64,000 nucleotides of DNA from Roseburia sp. (lineage in GTDB: Bacteria > Bacteroidota > Bacteroidia > Bacteroidales > Bacteroidaceae), in NCBI GenBank assembly GCA_023665185.1, contig JAMPEL010000012.1:1-64000 (forward strand), written 5' to 3'. The translations under genes and the position numbers were made by a program. Below are positions 12,259 to 45,233 of the stretch, piece after piece. A model generated the notes under the pieces. That model ran no database searches. It saw only the letters and a program-made list of their open reading frames with translations, and was not told the DNA's origin. Each line of letters starts with the position of its first letter. The first letter of the stretch is position 1.

Positions 12259-13548
12259 ATGGAAAGAACAAAACTTCATTTCGAGACACTGCAACTGCAT
12301 GTAGGACAAGAACAACCAGACCCGGCGACTGACGCACGCGCTGTCCCTATCTACCAGACTACAAGCTACGTATTCCGCAACTCACAACATGCGGCTGACC
12401 GCTTCGGACTGCGCGATGCAGGCAACATCTACGGAAGACTGACAAACTCCACTCAGGGAGTTTTTGAGGAGAGAGTGGCAGCATTGGAAGGCGGTGTGGC
12501 AGGATTGGCTGTAGCAAGCGGAGCTGCCGCCGTGACATACGCTTTACAGAACATTCTCGGTGTGGGCGACCATATTGTAGCTGCGGACAATCTGTATGGC
12601 GGCTCATTCAATCTTATCACACATACACTTGCCAGTCAGGGTGTCACCCATACAATTGTCAATGTAAACGATTTGACAGCTCTCGACGCTGCCATTCAAG
12701 CAAACACAAAGGCTGTGTATGTGGAGACATTCGGCAATCCTAACTCTGATGTAACTAATATAGATGCGGTGGCAGAGGTAGCCCACCGTCATAATGTGCC
12801 CCTCATTGTAGACAACACATTCGGCACTCCATATCTTATACGCCCTATCGAACACGGAGCAGACATAGTAGTACACTCGGCCACAAAGTTCATCGGCGGA
12901 CACGGCAGCAGCCTCGGCGGTGTGATTGTAGACGGAGGAAAGTTCGACTGGAAAGCGAATGCCGACAAGTTCCCTACTCTCGCCAAACCAGACCCAAGCT
13001 ATCATGGGGCAATCTTTGCTGATGTAGCAGGCGCAGCAGCATTTGTCACCCGCATCCGTGCCGTTATCCTCCGTGACACCGGTGCAACAATCTCCCCTTT
13101 CAATGCGTTTATACTTCTACAGGGACTTGAGACATTGTCTCTCCGCGTAGAGCGTCATGTGGCAAATGCCCTCAAGGTGGTAGAGTATTTGTCAAGACAT
13201 CCGAAAGTGGCAAAAGTCAATCACCCGTCACTGCCTCAGCATCCCGACCACGAGCTTTACAAGCAACTCTACCCAAACGGAGGAGGAAGTATCTTCACAT
13301 TTGAGATAAAAGGCGGAGAAGCAGAAGCATGGAAATTCATCGACTCTTTGGAGATTTTCTCACTGCTTGCCAATGTGGCAGATGTAAAGAGCCTTGTCAT
13401 ACATCCTTATACAACCACTCATTCCCAGATGACTCCGGAAGAGCTTGCCCAGCAACACATCACCCCTTCAACTGTTCGCCTGAGCATCGGTACGGAACAC
13501 ATCGACGACCTCATTGCCGACATAGAACAGGCATTGGCAAAAATTTAA
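12259..13548 (+). CDS. metY: O-acetylhomoserine sulfhydrylase (Cys/Met PLP family)
   Basis: A 429-residue pyridoxal-phosphate enzyme of the Cys/Met metabolism class. The PLP lysine is Lys210 in [11 protein letters not shown]. The long central loop and the ending [20 protein letters not shown] agree with O-acetylhomoserine aminocarboxypropyltransferases, which make homocysteine from O-acetylhomoserine and sulfide. It is followed 19 bp later by a cysteine synthase gene, giving a two-gene sulfide-assimilation operon with its own promoter and terminator. Cystathionine gamma-synthase is the nearest alternative, but the length favours MetY. Confidence 0.92.
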
Positions 13549-13567
13549 TCATCAAACAACAATCACT

Positions 13568-14515
13568 ATGGCAAAAATCGCACAACAACTGACAGAGCTT
13601 ATAGGCAACACACCTTTGCTCGAACTCCAGTCTTATAGCAAGGCGGAAGGCACGGAAAGTGTCGTGACAGCCAAACTCGAATATTTCAATCCGGCAGGAA
13701 GTGTAAAGGACCGTGCGGCATTCAATATGATAAGGGATGCGGAGGAACGAGGAAAACTCGTTCCCGGAGCGACCATCATTGAGCCGACAAGCGGCAACAC
13801 GGGAGTGGGACTCGCCTTCGTCTCTGCCGTCAGAGGCTATAAACTGGTCCTCACCATGCCCGACACGATGAGTGTGGAGCGCAGAAACCTGTTGAAGGCA
13901 TACGGTGCCACATTGGTGCTCACCCCGGGAGCTGAAGGCATGAAAGGTGCCATAGCCAAAGCGAAAGAGTTGTGCGACAATATTCCAGGCGCCATCATCT
14001 TACAGCAATTTGAGAGTCCCGCCAATCCAGCCGCTCATTATGCGACAACAGCAGAGGAGATATGGAGAGACACCGACGGGAAAGTGGACATCTTCGTAGC
14101 AGGTGTGGGCACAGGAGGCACCGTCAGCGGTGTGGGCAAACGCCTGAAAGAACTGAATCCCTATGTACACATAGTGGCTGTGGAACCATCCACCTCCGCA
14201 GTACTGTCGGGAGAACCATCCGGAGCACACAAAATACAGGGCATAGGCGCAGGATTCGTTCCTCCGATATTCAACAAAGACGTTGTTGATGAGATTTTCA
14301 AGGTGGACAGCGACGCAGCCATCCTTGCCAGCCGCAAACTTGCCGCCCACGAGGGTCTGCTTGTCGGCATATCATCTGGTGCCGCCGTGTATGCGGCAAC
14401 ACAAATCGCCCAAAAGCCTGAGAACAAGGGCAAGCGCATTATCGCCCTGCTGCCGGATACTGGTGAGAGGTATTTGAGCACAGTTCTTTATGACACAGAG
14501 AACTATCCGTTGTAA
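13568..14515 (+). CDS. cysK: Cysteine synthase A (O-acetylserine sulfhydrylase)
   Basis: A 315-residue fold type II PLP enzyme that makes cysteine from O-acetylserine and sulfide. The PLP lysine is Lys47 in [16 protein letters not shown] follows near residue 77, and [12 protein letters not shown] binds the phosphate. The length and the ending with [10 protein letters not shown] are typical of CysK. It is second in an operon with metY, so the operon directs sulfide to both cysteine and homocysteine. A large hairpin follows. Confidence 0.95.
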
Positions 14516-17498: not shown

Positions 17499-17640
17499 AA
17501 GTGTGTCAGAAGGAAGTTTCCATACCATACGCAAGTTTGTAACAAGGACAATCCAAAATGGAGCAAACCGCCTGAAAACATCTGATGCAGGATTTTGCAG
17601 ATAAAATACAAACAAAGAAAATTGACATTCTGTCAGTTGA

Positions 17641-17712
17641 AAAAAGGAGACGATTTTAACATTTCAGGCATTAGTCTGTGGTTTGAAATGCATACAAATC
17701 CGTCTCCTTTTA
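17641..17712 (+). terminator. Hairpin terminator after the ferredoxin gene
   Basis: AAAAGGAGACG (17642-17652) pairs with CGTCTCCTTTT (17701-17711). Inside the loop CATTTCA and TGAAATG form a second stem. The right arm ends in a T run. It lies about 150 bp after the ferredoxin stop. Confidence 0.65.
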
Positions 17713-17749
17713 CGCTAAGCATCAGATAATCAAATAGATACAATTTCAC

Positions 17750-18240
17750 CTAAAAAGGTATAGTTTTAGTTCAAAAACCAAGCGTTGAGAGTAAAATAGA
17801 ATATCTTGATAATCAACATATTACAGCAAAGCCCATCAAAAACCATCATTTTTTGCCGCCAAAATTAAAATCTGTTTGACGAGGCACAGAAAACCGCCCG
17901 TAAACATATATTAAGGATTGCCATAAAACATGCACGATTTTAGCCCGAAATACGGACGTTTCAAAACTCGTGCGCCTTGAAAATAAAATTGCAAGGTGAA
18001 CCGCAAAAAATTGGTTGGCGCACGAGTTTTATTTTCACAGTACTCTAATTTCGGCAAAAACACGCTCAAATGTAAATATATGTATCTTTATTGGGTCAAA
18101 ATTAGCATGTTTTTACAAATCGCTTTCGACAACAAAAAACCGCTGTAGAATCGCTCAAATGCAGCTAAAGTAAGGTCTGGTTCATTTTAAGGCGATTCTA
18201 CGAGGTCGGACTTTAACATATCAAATTGACAGAAAACACG
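17750..18240 (+). repeat. Intergenic structured repeat, copy B (most diverged)
   Basis: This is related to copies A (1-410) and C (42340-42870) in the same orientation. Shared parts are AACCATCATTTTT near 17840, TGCGCCTTGAAAATAAA near 17970, TATCTTTATTGGGTC, the hairpin arms CTGTAGAATCGC and GCGATTCTACG, and TTTAACATATCAAATTGACAG at the end. The copy is more degraded than A and C, but the order of blocks is kept. Confidence 0.75.
18143..18203. repeat. Hairpin of repeat copy B
   Basis: CTGTAGAATCGC (18143-18154) faces GCGATTCTACGAG (18192-18204); the inner 11 bases pair exactly. The loop keeps CAAATGCA and GTTCATTTT, which themselves extend the stem (AAATG with CATTT). Confidence 0.75.
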
Positions 18241-18377
18241 CATCTTCACAAAACAAATAACAGACAATTGCTGTTTTTCATGTAAATCCTGCAAAATCCA
18301 TATCAAAAGGAGACTACAACATACACCCACATATTTTTACAGAAAGCAGAAACAAAAAATCATGCCAAAAGGAAATA

Positions 18378-18392
18378 TTTTCCAATGGAAAG
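18378..18392. promoter_or_regulatory. Operator candidate O1 upstream of the sulfur-transfer operon
   Basis: TTTTCCAATGGAAAG is a near-perfect palindrome (TTTCC and GGAAA around AAT). An almost identical copy lies 50 bp downstream at 18429-18442, so the two are about five helical turns apart and bracket the -7 element. The second gene of the operon encodes a MarR regulator, whose family binds such palindromes as a dimer. Confidence 0.6.
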
Positions 18393-18415
18393 TTTTTCAA
18401 ATCAGAAATTAGTTA

Positions 18416-18423
18416 TACATTTG
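18416..18423 (+). promoter_or_regulatory. Promoter -7 element of the sulfur-transfer operon
   Basis: TACATTTGC matches TAnnTTTG and would start transcription near 18430, inside the second palindrome. The -33 region (about 18393) is GTTTTTC rather than TTTG and touches the first palindrome. A repressor bound to both sites would cover the promoter. Confidence 0.6.
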
Positions 18424-18428
18424 CATAA

Positions 18429-18442
18429 TTTCCAATGGAAAG
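18429..18442. promoter_or_regulatory. Operator candidate O2 upstream of the sulfur-transfer operon
   Basis: TTTCCAATGGAAAG repeats the O1 palindrome and lies at the predicted transcription start, 33 bp before the ATG at 18475. Confidence 0.6.
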
Positions 18443-18474
18443 TATTTTTTTCAATACAAATTAAGAAGACATTT

Positions 18475-20913
18475 ATGAAATACGTAATTATTGGCGGTGT
18501 GGCTGGCGGAGCAACTGCGGCAGCCCGAATAAGAAGAAACAGCGAGCAGGCAGAAATCGTATTGTTCGAGAAAGGTGAGCACATATCTTATGCAAACTGC
18601 GGTCTACCTTATTATATAGGAGGCACAATTGCCGAGCGTGAGAAACTTTTTGTCCAGACTCCCGAGGCATTTGGCCGCAGGTTCAACATTGATGTCCGCC
18701 CACTGTCGGAAGTAATCAAGGTGGATGCGGAGAACAAAACTGTCACAGTACACCCACATAACGGCAAGGAATATACCGAGACTTACGACAAGTTGCTGCT
18801 GTCGCCCGGCGCGTCTCCAGTGCGCCCACCACTGCCGGGCATAGACACAGAGGGCATTTTCACTCTGCGGAACGTAACGGACACTGACACTATAAAGAAC
18901 TTCATCCAAGAGCGCAAGCCAAAGAACGCAGTCATCATTGGCGCCGGATTCATCGGACTTGAAATGGCTGAGAACCTGCACGAGGCGGGACTGGAAGTGG
19001 CGGTAGTGGAAATGGCAAATCAGGTGATGGCACCTATCGACTTTTCTATGGCATCGTTTGTCCATGAGCATCTCGCACAGAAAAGAGTCCGGCTGTATCT
19101 CGAAAAAGCAGTCGCATCGTTTGAGAAGTCCGCAACCAACATCAATGTGACATTCAAATCGGGTGAGATTCTCTCAACCGACATGGTAATCCTGTCAATC
19201 GGAGTGCGTCCAAACACGGCCCTTGCAGCCAATGCGGGTCTGGACTTGGGAGAGATGAGAGGAATAAAAGTGAACGATTTTCTTCAAACCTCCAATGAGG
19301 ATATATATGCCGTGGGCGATGCGATTGAGTTCCGCCACCCGCTCAGCGGCAAACCGTGGCTCAACTATCTTGCCGGACCCGCCAACCGTCAGGCGCGCAT
19401 TGTTGCCGACAATATGGTGTTTGGCAACATACAAAAGTATGAGGGGGCTGTCGGCACATCGGTAGCCAAAGTGTTCGACCTCACTGTGGCTGCCACCGGT
19501 CTGCCAGCAAAACGGCTCAAACAAACCGGCATCGACTACCTGTCGGCAACCATCCACCCAAGTTCTCACGCAAGCTACTATCCCGGTGCGCTCCCTATGT
19601 CGATAAAAATCACATTCTCGCCCGCCAATGGCAAACTGCTTGGCGCACAGATTGTGGGATATGACGGTGTGGACAAGCGCATAGACGAGTTTGCGTCCGT
19701 AATCAAGCATGGCGGCAGTGTCTACGACCTACAGGCCATAGAACAGGCATACGCTCCGCCATACTCGTCAGCCAAAGACCCGGTGGCAGTGGCGGGATAT
19801 GTGGCAGGGAATATTCTTTCAGGCAAGATGACACCGCTCTATTGGCGCAAGCTTCGGGATACAGACCGTTCAACAGTCACACTCATAGATGTCCGCACTC
19901 CCGACGAGTTTGCCCTCGGAGCATTGGACGGAGCAATAAATATTCCGCTTGACAACATGCGCGACCGCTTAAAGGAAATACCAGCTGACAAGTCTGTGTT
20001 CCTGTACTGCGGTGTGGGCTTGCGCGGTTATCTTGCGTCCAACATTCTCAAGCAAAACGGATTTAAGAATGTGCATAACCTCATTGGCGGACTAAAACTG
20101 TACAAATCCGCCACTTCGCCTGTTCCCGCACCAAAAAGTTTTACAGGAAGTATTGTCACGGACAAGCCTGCCGCCCACACCGCACACCGCACAATAAAGG
20201 TCGATGCCTGTGGAATAGCGTGCCCGGGGCCTATTCTCAAACTGAAAAACAATATCGGAACACTCACCGAAGGCGAACAGCTTGAAATCATCGCCACCGA
20301 CCCCGGTTTTCCGCGCGATGCCGAGGCATGGTGCCAGACAACGGGCAACCGCTTCATCTCATCATACTCAAACGGTGGCAAATACATGGTCGTAGTAGCT
20401 AAGGGCAACGGAACACCCGCATCGGCAGAAAGCACCGGAGACCAAAAAGGCAAGACCTTTGTCCTATTCAGCGATGACCTCGACAAAGCCCTTGCCACAT
20501 TCGTACTTGCAAACGGAGCTGCTGCAACCGGAAAGAAAGTGAGCATATTCTTCACATTCTGGGGATTGAATGCCATAAAAAAGGAAACGAAACCAACAGT
20601 AAAGAAAGACATATTCGGACGAATGTTCGGCATGATGCTTCCGTCAAGCTCCCAAAAGCTGAAACTGTCAAAGATGAACATGGGAGGCATTGGCTCAAAG
20701 ATAATGCGCCACATCATGAAAAACAAGAACGTGGACTCGCTTGAAGAACTGCGCGCCCAAACGATAGAGAACGGTGTGGAGTTCATTGCCTGCCAGATGT
20801 CGATGGATGTAATGGGAGTTGCCCGTGAAGAACTGCTTGACAATGTGACAATCGGTGGTGTCGCCACCTACATGAACCGTGCCGAACAAGCTAATGTAAA
20901 CCTTTTCATATAA
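18475..20913 (+). CDS. CoA-disulfide reductase-rhodanese-TusA-DsrE four-domain protein
   Basis: An 812-residue cytoplasmic flavoprotein. Residues 1-450 are an FAD/NAD(P)H disulfide reductase of the CoA-disulfide reductase type, with the single redox Cys42 (SYANCGLPYYIGG) and a dimerisation domain. Residues about 465-555 are a rhodanese domain with the sulfur-carrying Cys512 (YCGVGLRGY). Residues about 575-645 are a TusA/SirA domain with CPGP at Cys583. Residues about 660-812 are a DsrE-like domain with Cys773 (ACQMSMDVMG). Together they look like a relay that reduces polysulfide or CoA-persulfide and passes sulfur from cysteine to cysteine. The start at 18475 is favoured over the ATG at 18385, which lies upstream of the promoter -7. 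It is followed 7 bp later by a MarR gene. Confidence 0.92.
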   Translation: MKYVIIGGVAGGATAAARIRRNSEQAEIVLFEKGEHISYANCGLPYYIGGTIAEREKLFVQTPEAFGRRFNIDVRPLSEVIKVDAENKTVTVHPHNGKEYTETYDKLLLSPGASPVRPPLPGIDTEGIFTLRNVTDTDTIKNFIQERKPKNAVIIGAGFIGLEMAENLHEAGLEVAVVEMANQVMAPIDFSMASFVHEHLAQKRVRLYLEKAVASFEKSATNINVTFKSGEILSTDMVILSIGVRPNTALAANAGLDLGEMRGIKVNDFLQTSNEDIYAVGDAIEFRHPLSGKPWLNYLAGPANRQARIVADNMVFGNIQKYEGAVGTSVAKVFDLTVAATGLPAKRLKQTGIDYLSATIHPSSHASYYPGALPMSIKITFSPANGKLLGAQIVGYDGVDKRIDEFASVIKHGGSVYDLQAIEQAYAPPYSSAKDPVAVAGYVAGNILSGKMTPLYWRKLRDTDRSTVTLIDVRTPDEFALGALDGAINIPLDNMRDRLKEIPADKSVFLYCGVGLRGYLASNILKQNGFKNVHNLIGGLKLYKSATSPVPAPKSFTGSIVTDKPAAHTAHRTIKVDACGIACPGPILKLKNNIGTLTEGEQLEIIATDPGFPRDAEAWCQTTGNRFISSYSNGGKYMVVVAKGNGTPASAESTGDQKGKTFVLFSDDLDKALATFVLANGAAATGKKVSIFFTFWGLNAIKKETKPTVKKDIFGRMFGMMLPSSSQKLKLSKMNMGGIGSKIMRHIMKNKNVDSLEELRAQTIENGVEFIACQMSMDVMGVAREELLDNVTIGGVATYMNRAEQANVNLFI

Positions 20914-20920
20914 TCTCGCA

Positions 20921-21286
20921 ATGGAAAAAATAAAATCAATCTGTGTGATGCGCGAGCTGTTGAAAGCGATGAACGCTCTCGAATCACAACTGCAAAGCAG
21001 GTTTGGAGTATCAATTAATGAGGCCATGGCACTTTGCTGCATCGGTGGAGACACCCTCACCGCATCCAAGATTTCGGAAAATATAGGACTGACGCCATCC
21101 AACACTTCCAAAGTGATTCGGTCGATAGAGTCCAAAGAACTGGTCACACGCAGTCCGGGGGATACCGACCATCGCCAGATGTGCTTCACACTGACAGAAA
21201 AGGGAATGGAAAAGTTGCGGACAATCAAGAACAACGAAATTGAGATTCCCGAATTTATCAAGCCGTTGTTCGATTGCGAGCATTGA
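20921..21286 (+). CDS. MarR-family transcriptional regulator
   Basis: A 121-residue winged-helix repressor. LTASKISENIGLTPSNTSKV is the helix-turn-helix and TRSPGDTDHRQMCFTLTEKG is the wing, with the DxR-type residues of the family. It is a short MarR protein. It lies 7 bp behind the sulfur-transfer flavoprotein and the two palindromes before that operon are good candidates for its binding sites, so I infer autoregulation, perhaps through oxidation by reactive sulfur species of Cys8 or Cys37/38. Confidence 0.9.
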   Translation: MEKIKSICVMRELLKAMNALESQLQSRFGVSINEAMALCCIGGDTLTASKISENIGLTPSNTSKVIRSIESKELVTRSPGDTDHRQMCFTLTEKGMEKLRTIKNNEIEIPEFIKPLFDCEH

Positions 21287-21507: not shown

Positions 21508-22122
21508 TTACAACCTGAATATTTCTTGTTGTAGCAAATCAAGAAATCGGGCGGCATGAGCACCGTCCATTTGTGTATGATGAAATTGGAAAGATACGGT
21601 GAGGGTGGTCTTGAAGAACCGTTTCTTGTATTTGCCCCATATCATAAACGGGTTGTTGAAGATGCCGCTGTACATGCCTACAGCCCCGTCTATGTCATAT
21701 TGTGCAAGTGCGGACGTGCCGATTACCATACTATCGGCAATGTCGTGGCTCTCACAACTCTCGGATACCTGTCGGGTGAAGCGAAGATAATCGGAATTGA
21801 ACGCAGGCAAATCCTCTGAAAACGGAACATCACATGAGCTGACCTCACCCTGCCTGTTCGCCACAATAGTATTGACAGCTATCGTGTCGTACTTGATAAG
21901 TTTGTCACCAACCGGAAGCATATAAAACTCTTTCACTTGCGAGGCGGCACGACCTACGCACCAGCACATCAGCATATTGAATTTCAGACCTCGTTTACGG
22001 CTTATTTTCAACAACCGCGACACATCAAGCGTCTTGAAGAATGTCACCATTGGCATGGGCGCGTTCATCCACATCTCAAAAGCATATGCTCTTGTCGTCT
22101 CTCTTGGGTTTACTTCTCTCAT
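21508..22122 (-). CDS. CatA-like (chloramphenicol acetyltransferase family) acyltransferase
   Basis: A 204-residue protein of the trimeric chloramphenicol acetyltransferase fold. The catalytic signature HHTQMDGAHAARFL is present, with His182 as general base and Asp186 as the structural acid; QYDIDGAVGMYSGIF and SFQF are also family-like. True resistance enzymes are about 213 residues, and Bacteroidales chromosomes commonly carry relatives with unknown acceptors. I therefore do not call it a resistance gene. It stands alone on the minus strand. Confidence 0.85.
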   Translation of the reverse strand: MREVNPRETTRAYAFEMWMNAPMPMVTFFKTLDVSRLLKISRKRGLKFNMLMCWCVGRAASQVKEFYMLPVGDKLIKYDTIAVNTIVANRQGEVSSCDVPFSEDLPAFNSDYLRFTRQVSESCESHDIADSMVIGTSALAQYDIDGAVGMYSGIFNNPFMIWGKYKKRFFKTTLTVSFQFHHTQMDGAHAARFLDLLQQEIFRL

Positions 22123-42211: not shown

Positions 42212-42593
42212 TTACCGAATAGCAGTATGCAGACAATAAATACTGACATTATGTCACTTAAAGCAGAAAACGCGTTTTTAACATTTCCAGCTTAAACTGA
42301 GGCCGGATTGGCACTTGGTCCTCAAAGCCAAATCGATAAATTACTGATAATCAAGCAGATACTATTTTACAAAAAAGACGCGGTTTTTGATCAAAAACTA
42401 AGGGTTGAGCACAAAATAGGATGTATTGATTATCAGCGAGTTATGAGATCTCATTGTCAAAATCATCATTTTTCGGGTTCAAAATCCATTTTTGTTTTTC
42501 AGAGCACCGAAAAGCCGCTCATGGTCTTTTTGAGGGAACGACTTGGAAAAATGCCCAAATTTGACCCCAAAATAGGGCTTGGAAAATTTCGTT

Positions 42594-42619
42594 CACCTTG
42601 AAAATAAATTTTCAAGGTG
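42594..42619. repeat. Internal 26-bp palindrome of repeat copy C
   Basis: CACCTTGAAAAT and its exact inverse are separated by AA. In copy B the outer CCTTG/CAAGG pairing is kept (near 17971-17996), and copy A keeps the CACCTTG and GCGCCTTG words without the exact palindrome. Confidence 0.8.
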
Positions 42620-42780
42620 AAGCGAATAAAATTGGTGCGCCTTGAAATAAAATTTACTTCACCTTGTAATTTTAGATTTTAGCGGACTTTTTGGGGAATA
42701 AAGCCCAATCAGGCTTGAAATTGTTATCTTTTAGTCGGGCGAACTATTCTATTTTCTCATCCCGATTTTGAATCTCAAAA

Positions 42781-42848
42781 ACCTCCGTAGAATCGCCCAA
42801 ATGCAACCTCGGCGAGGCGAAGTTCATTTTGAGCGATTCTACGGAGGT
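42781..42848. repeat. Terminal hairpin of repeat copy C
   Basis: ACCTCCGTAGAATCGC (42781-42796) and its exact 16-base inverse (42833-42848) enclose 36 bases. The loop extends the stem (AAATG with CATTT) and contains a smaller hairpin CCTCGGCGAGG. It is the strongest hairpin in the window that is not a terminator. Confidence 0.85.
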
Positions 42849-42972
42849 CGAATTTTAACATCTCAAGAAAAGCATAAAGATATATAAATTTAGAATTTAA
42901 CAGCATTTTGTCAGCAAACAGAATAAAAGCAATTTCCTAAAAGCTCAAAGTATCACACTTTACGCATACGAT

Positions 42973-43775: not shown

Positions 43776-45233
43776 CTAACACTCATGGCAAGCAGCGGTT
43801 TGCACACCAATTTTCTCACGCTCCGGCGGCCCGTCTTCTCCTTTATTGTAAGGATACAGCCCCACTCCGCCCATCTTTTTCCAATGCTCCGTTATCGGCT
43901 CCACAAACCGCCAGCTTGCCTCCAACGCGTCACTGCGCGCATAGAGTGTGGAATCGCCCGACATGGCATCCATGAGTAACCGCTCGTAAGCGTCCGGCAG
44001 GCGCACCCCATTGAGCGAATCATAATCAAATTTCATTGCCACCTGCCTGACTGTAAACCCGTTGCCCGGCTCTTTCAGTCCGAACATCAGCGTAATGCTC
44101 TCATCTGGCTGAATCCGAATCAGCAGCTTGTTGCATGAGTTTCCGGCACACTGCCCGGCAAACAAGCGGTGGGGAGTGGAACGGAAATTCACCACCACCT
44201 CCGATGTTTTCTCCGACATAGCCTTTCCTGTCACAAAATAGAAAGGCACTCCGCTCCATCTCCAATTGTCGATGAAGACTTTCATTGCAATGTATGTCTC
44301 CGTTTCCGACAAAGGATTCACATTGGGTTCGCCTCGATAACCTACATACTGCCCTCGCACAACGAAATCGTCAATCTCATGCGACGCATAAAGGCGAAGC
44401 GAGCGAAGTACCTTGCACACCTCATCGCGTATGGTCTCGGCATCGAAAGCCGAGGGAGGTTCCATTGCCACAAATCCCATTAGCTGCATAAGATGGTTCT
44501 GCACCATGTCTCTCAACGCACCGGAAGCATCGTAATATCCTCCGCGAGTCCCCACACCAAGCGACTCAGCGGCATGTATCTCTACGGAGTCAATATAGTT
44601 GCGGTTCCACAGCGGCTCGAATATTCCATTGGAAAAACGCAATGCCAGAATATTCTGCACGGTCTCCTTTCCCAGAAAATGGTCTATGCGGAAAATATCT
44701 TTCTCATCAAATATACGAAGAAGGTGCGCATTCAGCTTCTCAGCAGTAGACAGGCTTGTGCCAAACGGCTTCTCCACCACCATTCTGCGCCATCCGCCCG
44801 CACCCGGCACATTCATTCCTGCCAGACGGATACATTCCGATATGGTCTCATACATGAATGGAGGTGTGGCAAGATAAAAGACAATGTTATCCGGAAGCCC
44901 GACAGTTTTCTGCAAACGCTTCACCGTATCGCCCAACAATCCATACTGTTCTTTGTCTGTCGGGTCGATGGACACATAGTAGAGGTGGCCGGCAAAAGCC
45001 TCAAGTTGTCTATCGTCCACAGACTGTTCGGCCAATGCGGCACGTATATGTTCTGTCTGTTCGGCTCGGAAACTATGGTTGTCATACGGTGTGCGCCCGA
45101 CACCGAGAATACAAAAACGTGTCGGCAACATGCCGCGCAGATGGAGCTTGTAAAGCGAGGGCATAAGCTTGCGCCGCGTAAGGTCGCCCGAAGCTCCGAA
45201 AATGACAAACATCTGGTCTTTTGCTTGCTTCAT
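43776..45233 (-). CDS. zwf: Glucose-6-phosphate 1-dehydrogenase
   Basis: A 485-residue NADP-dependent dehydrogenase that begins the oxidative pentose phosphate pathway. FGASGDLTRRKL (12-23) is the dinucleotide motif, EKPFG lies at 154-158, and FRIDHFLGKE (181-190) holds the substrate-binding and catalytic residues including His185. The length is standard. It lies between gnd (50 bp upstream) and pgl, so the three enzymes of the branch are co-expressed. Confidence 0.96.
   Translation of the reverse strand: MKQAKDQMFVIFGASGDLTRRKLMPSLYKLHLRGMLPTRFCILGVGRTPYDNHSFRAEQTEHIRAALAEQSVDDRQLEAFAGHLYYVSIDPTDKEQYGLLGDTVKRLQKTVGLPDNIVFYLATPPFMYETISECIRLAGMNVPGAGGWRRMVVEKPFGTSLSTAEKLNAHLLRIFDEKDIFRIDHFLGKETVQNILALRFSNGIFEPLWNRNYIDSVEIHAAESLGVGTRGGYYDASGALRDMVQNHLMQLMGFVAMEPPSAFDAETIRDEVCKVLRSLRLYASHEIDDFVVRGQYVGYRGEPNVNPLSETETYIAMKVFIDNWRWSGVPFYFVTGKAMSEKTSEVVVNFRSTPHRLFAGQCAGNSCNKLLIRIQPDESITLMFGLKEPGNGFTVRQVAMKFDYDSLNGVRLPDAYERLLMDAMSGDSTLYARSDALEASWRFVEPITEHWKKMGGVGLYPYNKGEDGPPEREKIGVQTAACHEC

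Follow-up and report, generated by a model that had tools for sequence, protein, structure and literature searches.

A pair of identical palindromes that brackets the promoter of a redox operon is very probably the platform on which a MarR regulator of the BmoR type represses its own operon, with predicted operators placed at the regulator's own promoter. The pair lies in a 64,000-nucleotide stretch of DNA, referred to here as the window. We take the pair for a very likely binding platform of BmoR, a known self-repressing regulator, because related gut bacteria keep the layout. Overall, the kind of regulation is an ordinary one, to which useful detail is added; what is new is the rigid twin layout, the 21-bp operator and the wider predicted regulon.

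Palindromes and promoter in the window

The two palindromes share the core TTTCCAATGGAAA, found at 18379-18391 and again at 18429-18441, and each core sits within one copy of a direct repeat that is 23 bp long and 91% identical. Their starts are exactly 50 bp apart, and both copies are where the initial annotation had placed them; its observation that a -7 box sits between the two is likewise borne out. The predicted operator site 1, ATATTTTCCAATGGAAAGTTT (18375-18395, on the forward strand like the other promoter features), abuts the -33 region, a weak TTTTTC element at 18393-18398. This element, directly 3' of site 1, was assigned from its position 17-19 nt 5' of the -7 box, and orthologues have TTTG or TTG at the same place. 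The -7 promoter box itself is TACATTTGC (18416-18424), in which TACATTTG at 18416-18423 and the C that follows make a full match to TANNTTTGY, the Bacteroides -7 consensus as quoted in PMC12632263. The predicted operator site 2, ATAATTTCCAATGGAAAGTAT (18425-18445), is expected to cover the transcription start, which would lie at about 18429-18432 judging from the -7 box. A search of the region upstream of the operon against Rfam returned no RNA family.

Conservation of the sites and their spacing

The sequence 5' of the redox gene was taken as the promoter in many genomes of the same family and in named Bacteroidales. This gave 74 non-redundant orthologous promoters, unselected for the motif, in which a site was defined as TTTCCnnnGGAAA with at most one mismatch. 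At least one site is present in 54 of the 74, and 21 carry a pair, with spacings of 50 bp (two promoters), 51 bp (ten), 52 bp (eight) and 53 bp (one). No pair at a spacing of 48-54 appeared in 200 sets of shuffled promoters; when the full set of 80 promoters was shuffled, a site occurred in 0.6 promoters on average and pairs never. Since so many unselected promoters are paired at 50-53 bp and the shuffles are without pairs, conservation settles the question: the twin palindromes are real and beyond chance. The 75 orthologous sites give a 21-bp operator consensus, ATAnTTTCCAWTGGAAAnTAT.

The position of the sites relative to the promoter is also kept. In every pair the start of site 1 lies 36-38 bp 5' of the -7 box, and site 2 begins 13-16 bp past the start of that box. 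Promoters with a single site retain just one of the two, either site 1 or site 2, or have a site near the start codon; the last arrangement is found in part of the genus Bacteroides, without a clear TTTG -7 box. Two sites are not essential, because many promoters of the genus Bacteroides carry one, in some cases at a different place.

The spacing raises the matter of looping. The initial annotation had proposed that a five-turn spacing suits cooperative binding or looping, and the spacing of the pairs is indeed narrow, with a mode of 51-52 bp that is near five helical turns. Under such a reading, dimers would touch across the promoter, either by binding cooperatively or by forming a short loop of DNA, and the spacing itself would be the functional feature. 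We consider this unlikely, and it has been down-weighted as the main idea. The constant element is the distance from site 1 to the -7 box, whereas the stretch between the -7 box and site 2 differs in length, as it would if the polymerase footprint set the place of each site. With 10.5 bp to a helical turn, the 50-bp spacing seen in the window amounts to 4.76 turns, so the five-turn proposal is not supported there; moreover, promoters with either site alone are common, and the approximately 29 bp between the 21-bp operators would be too wide a gap for side-by-side contact of dimers and would make a very short loop. Because the tightest constraint runs from site 1 to the -7 box and not from site to site, direct blocking of RNA polymerase fits better than a loop, with the promoter fixing the geometry. 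Cooperativity could nonetheless benefit from a spacing close to five helical turns.

The operon and its MarR protein

The first gene of the operon (18475-20913, forward strand) encodes a fusion protein of 812 aa, in which Pfam and NCBIfam recognize four successive domains: CoA-disulfide reductase, rhodanese, TusA and DsrE2. Its start is the ATG at 18475, which is backed by orthologues; the longest open frame begins at an ATG at 18385, within site 1. The second gene (20921-21286, forward strand) follows after 7 bp and encodes a MarR regulator, in agreement with the initial annotation, and in orthologous loci the MarR gene is also directly downstream.

The product of the second gene is a short regulator of 121 aa, assigned to the BmoR type from Pfam, orthologues and an AlphaFold model. 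The Pfam families HTH_27 and MarR both score above cut-off, which indicates the winged helix-turn-helix of the MarR fold. The model (pLDDT 91.6) has the same fold and resembles MepR, SarZ and others; its C-terminus, the region of the long dimerization helices in the MarR family, is short, with a helix at 93-104 and then a short helix at 114-117. A named homologue from Phocaeicola vulgatus is 71% identical. The protein scores under every equivalog cut-off of NCBIfam, and an identity as OhrR is not supported, as the OhrR model gives 19.5 bits against a cut-off of 200.

The thiol-switch MarR proteins OhrR and SarZ/MgrA combine the MarR fold with a conserved N-terminal cysteine in helix 1. The likeness of the window protein to them lies in this fold and in its helix 1 cysteine, Cys8, whereas its modelled C-terminus is shorter, a second conserved cysteine (Cys39) is present in helix 2, and the other genes of the operon are different. 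Both are nearly invariant, Cys8 being kept in 63 and Cys39 in 65 of 66 homologues. The two residues are natural candidates for a thiol switch, consistent with the redox function of the operon.

The surroundings of the operon include a sulfur-assimilation neighborhood a few kilobases upstream (12259-14515), with genes for O-acetylhomoserine sulfhydrylase and cysteine synthase. Past the operon, on the opposite strand, lies a gene for a CatA-like O-acetyltransferase, family 2 (21508-22122; NCBIfam NF040637, 367 bits). The redox fusion and the MarR gene are both absent from the two genus mates that were searched (G029 and G052), and a Muribaculaceae assembly (L071) and Phocaeicola gave the closest relatives in the search; horizontal acquisition of the operon, or its loss from the genus mates, may therefore have taken place.

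Comparison with known systems

The closest described system is that of Bacteroides fragilis, where BmoR is the product of the MarR gene directly 3' of BF638R_0572 (Teixeira et al. 2018, PMC6158253). Deletion of bmoR raises the expression of BF638R_0572 by about 50-fold, and in an EMSA the protein binds a 151-bp fragment of the promoter of the BF638R_0572 operon, which it represses (PMC6158253). The operon of the window has in common with this one the four-domain redox fusion, the MarR gene directly after it and a TTTCC inverted repeat at the promoter, and on this architecture of gene order and domains the two operons are regarded as probable orthologues. They differ in the number of sites: the authors concluded that only one inverted-repeat site was available at the B. 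fragilis promoter (PMC6158253), whereas two perfect sites bracket the promoter here. A further difference concerns trxP, which was judged an indirect target of BmoR in B. fragilis (PMC6158253), while in other genomes a thioredoxin gene has a twin operator together with a MarR paralogue.

A more distant parallel is offered by MarR of E. coli, a self-repressor with two palindromic sites (marO) at its own promoter (PMC6158253). A MarR-fold repressor, two palindromes and self-repression, the last as a prediction for the window, are common to both, whereas the half-sites are TTGCC in marO and TTTCC here, and the promoter type, partner genes and operator positions differ.

Association of the motif with the MarR gene

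Among 49 genomes with the redox gene, a site is present in 31 of the 41 with a MarR homologue but in just one of the eight without (Fisher p = 0.0014); when six operons with the MarR gene first were left out, the counts became 31 of 35 against 1 of 8 (p = 7e-5), although the genomes behind both tests are related, so that the p-values overstate independence. The sole site-bearing genome without MarR (G039) has the gene cut by a contig end, and one genome (G143) has an adjacent MarR gene and no site. Operons with the MarR gene first have only decayed left-hand sites, and a decayed site is seen before several MarR genes.

The twin pattern was also searched for in DNA only, with no use of protein; the search covered 393 genomes at the level of the order and 301 at that of the family, and 35 twin sites were examined. 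In 34 of them, a -7 box is present at an offset of 36-38 and the site is directly 5' of a gene for CoA-disulfide reductase (18 cases), thioredoxin (12, several of them followed by a MarR gene), TolC (three) or MarR (one). A reversed control pattern gave one match in the family search and none in the order search. One genome, G348, was left out because its seven matches to the twin TTTCC/GGAAA pattern (L135, L138-L141) belong to a repeated element without a -7 box, as judged from the one copy examined (L135). In two genomes (G015 and G043; L143 and L146), two target types stand in one operon, the twin site being followed by thioredoxin, CoA-disulfide reductase and MarR genes; in a third (L145; G141:C1:127542-127604), the twin site is 5' of a thioredoxin gene and then a TolC gene. 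The motif thus travels with MarR regulators of this kind rather than with any single target: thioredoxin-MarR and TolC loci also have these twin sites, and in an unchanged register.

These data bear on whether another regulator, for example Crp/Fnr or another redox factor, binds the palindromes while the MarR gene is a passenger. Such palindromes are not diagnostic of any protein family, and the role of MarR in the window is itself predicted from sequence. However, the presence of the motif goes along with that of the MarR gene, also at the thioredoxin and TolC loci to which the two have moved together, and BmoR binds the counterpart promoter in B. fragilis (PMC6158253), which leaves a different regulator very improbable. 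The twin operator therefore keeps its reading as one that serves the operon's own MarR protein, the part of the initial annotation that is supported, on the tracking of the gene and the BmoR precedent; the part on five-turn cooperativity and looping is not supported.

Copies of the motif in this genome

At two mismatches the motif alone is nothing unusual within the window, where it has 7 matches against 3.6 in shuffles, and 7 was reached by 8 of 100 shuffles. This is the one point in favor of chance palindromes, or of a structural feature of AT-rich upstream DNA, a reading refuted with near certainty by the conservation of the two sites, their register and their spacing over several Bacteroidales families and by the absence of pairs from shuffles. 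The perfect motif TTTCCAWTGGAAA has three copies in the 3.38-Mb genome, two at the operon promoter and the third inside the coding sequence of ilvC; a one-mismatch copy at window position 44623 is also within a coding frame. A genome search for the motif had been suggested as a way to find the regulon. When 15 other perfect, near or degenerate matches were examined, 14 were inside open frames and none was in promoter register, with a -7 box at the right distance. A genome-wide regulon is thus ruled out in this genome, and the operon is the sole target there because no other match is in promoter register.

Proposed mechanism and significance

In the mechanism that we propose, a MarR dimer would bind each 21-bp palindrome, as inferred for this protein. 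Occupancy of site 1 would cover the edge of the -33 element, and occupancy of site 2 the transcription start; with either or both sites filled, RNA polymerase would be barred from the TACATTTGC promoter. This would hold down the levels of the redox fusion enzyme and of its repressor. A thiol or a disulfide/persulfide signal, with Cys8 and Cys39 as its probable sensors, would free the repressor and turn the operon on; both the identity of the signal and the sensing residues are put forward here as candidates.

A broader proposal, to which we give about even credence, is a Bacteroidales-wide thiol-stress regulon of short two-cysteine MarR repressors, whose members would be the CoA-disulfide-reductase fusion, a thioredoxin that is secreted and an export operon of the TolC type, each with the same rigid twin-site promoter and with a Cys8/Cys39 disulfide or persulfide switch.

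The predicted sites would give BmoR a precise operator sequence and geometry and would account for the shut-off of the promoter. The paired layout in relatives adds to the single-site reading in B. fragilis, and thioredoxin and TolC are predicted as further direct targets. The arrangement is also a compact natural design of a repressible promoter, usable in Bacteroidales genetics.

A 610-bp repeat upstream of the operators

Just 5' of the operators, at 17620-18233, the window holds a non-coding repeat of 610 bp, which has 69 BLAST matches in this genome. About 11 copies are near full length; these are intergenic and 77-81% identical. Inverted repeats within it, such as AAAACTCGTGCGCC...GGCGCACGAGTTTT and GTAGAATCGC...GCGATTCTAC, are strongly conserved, and the repeat shows little covariation and no match to Rfam. 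In 60 other genomes of the family it is absent, except for one 37-bp scrap in a genus mate. The repeat family seems to be private to this lineage, which is odd given its diverged copies. Partial pieces of it also occur elsewhere in the window, at 42346-42866.
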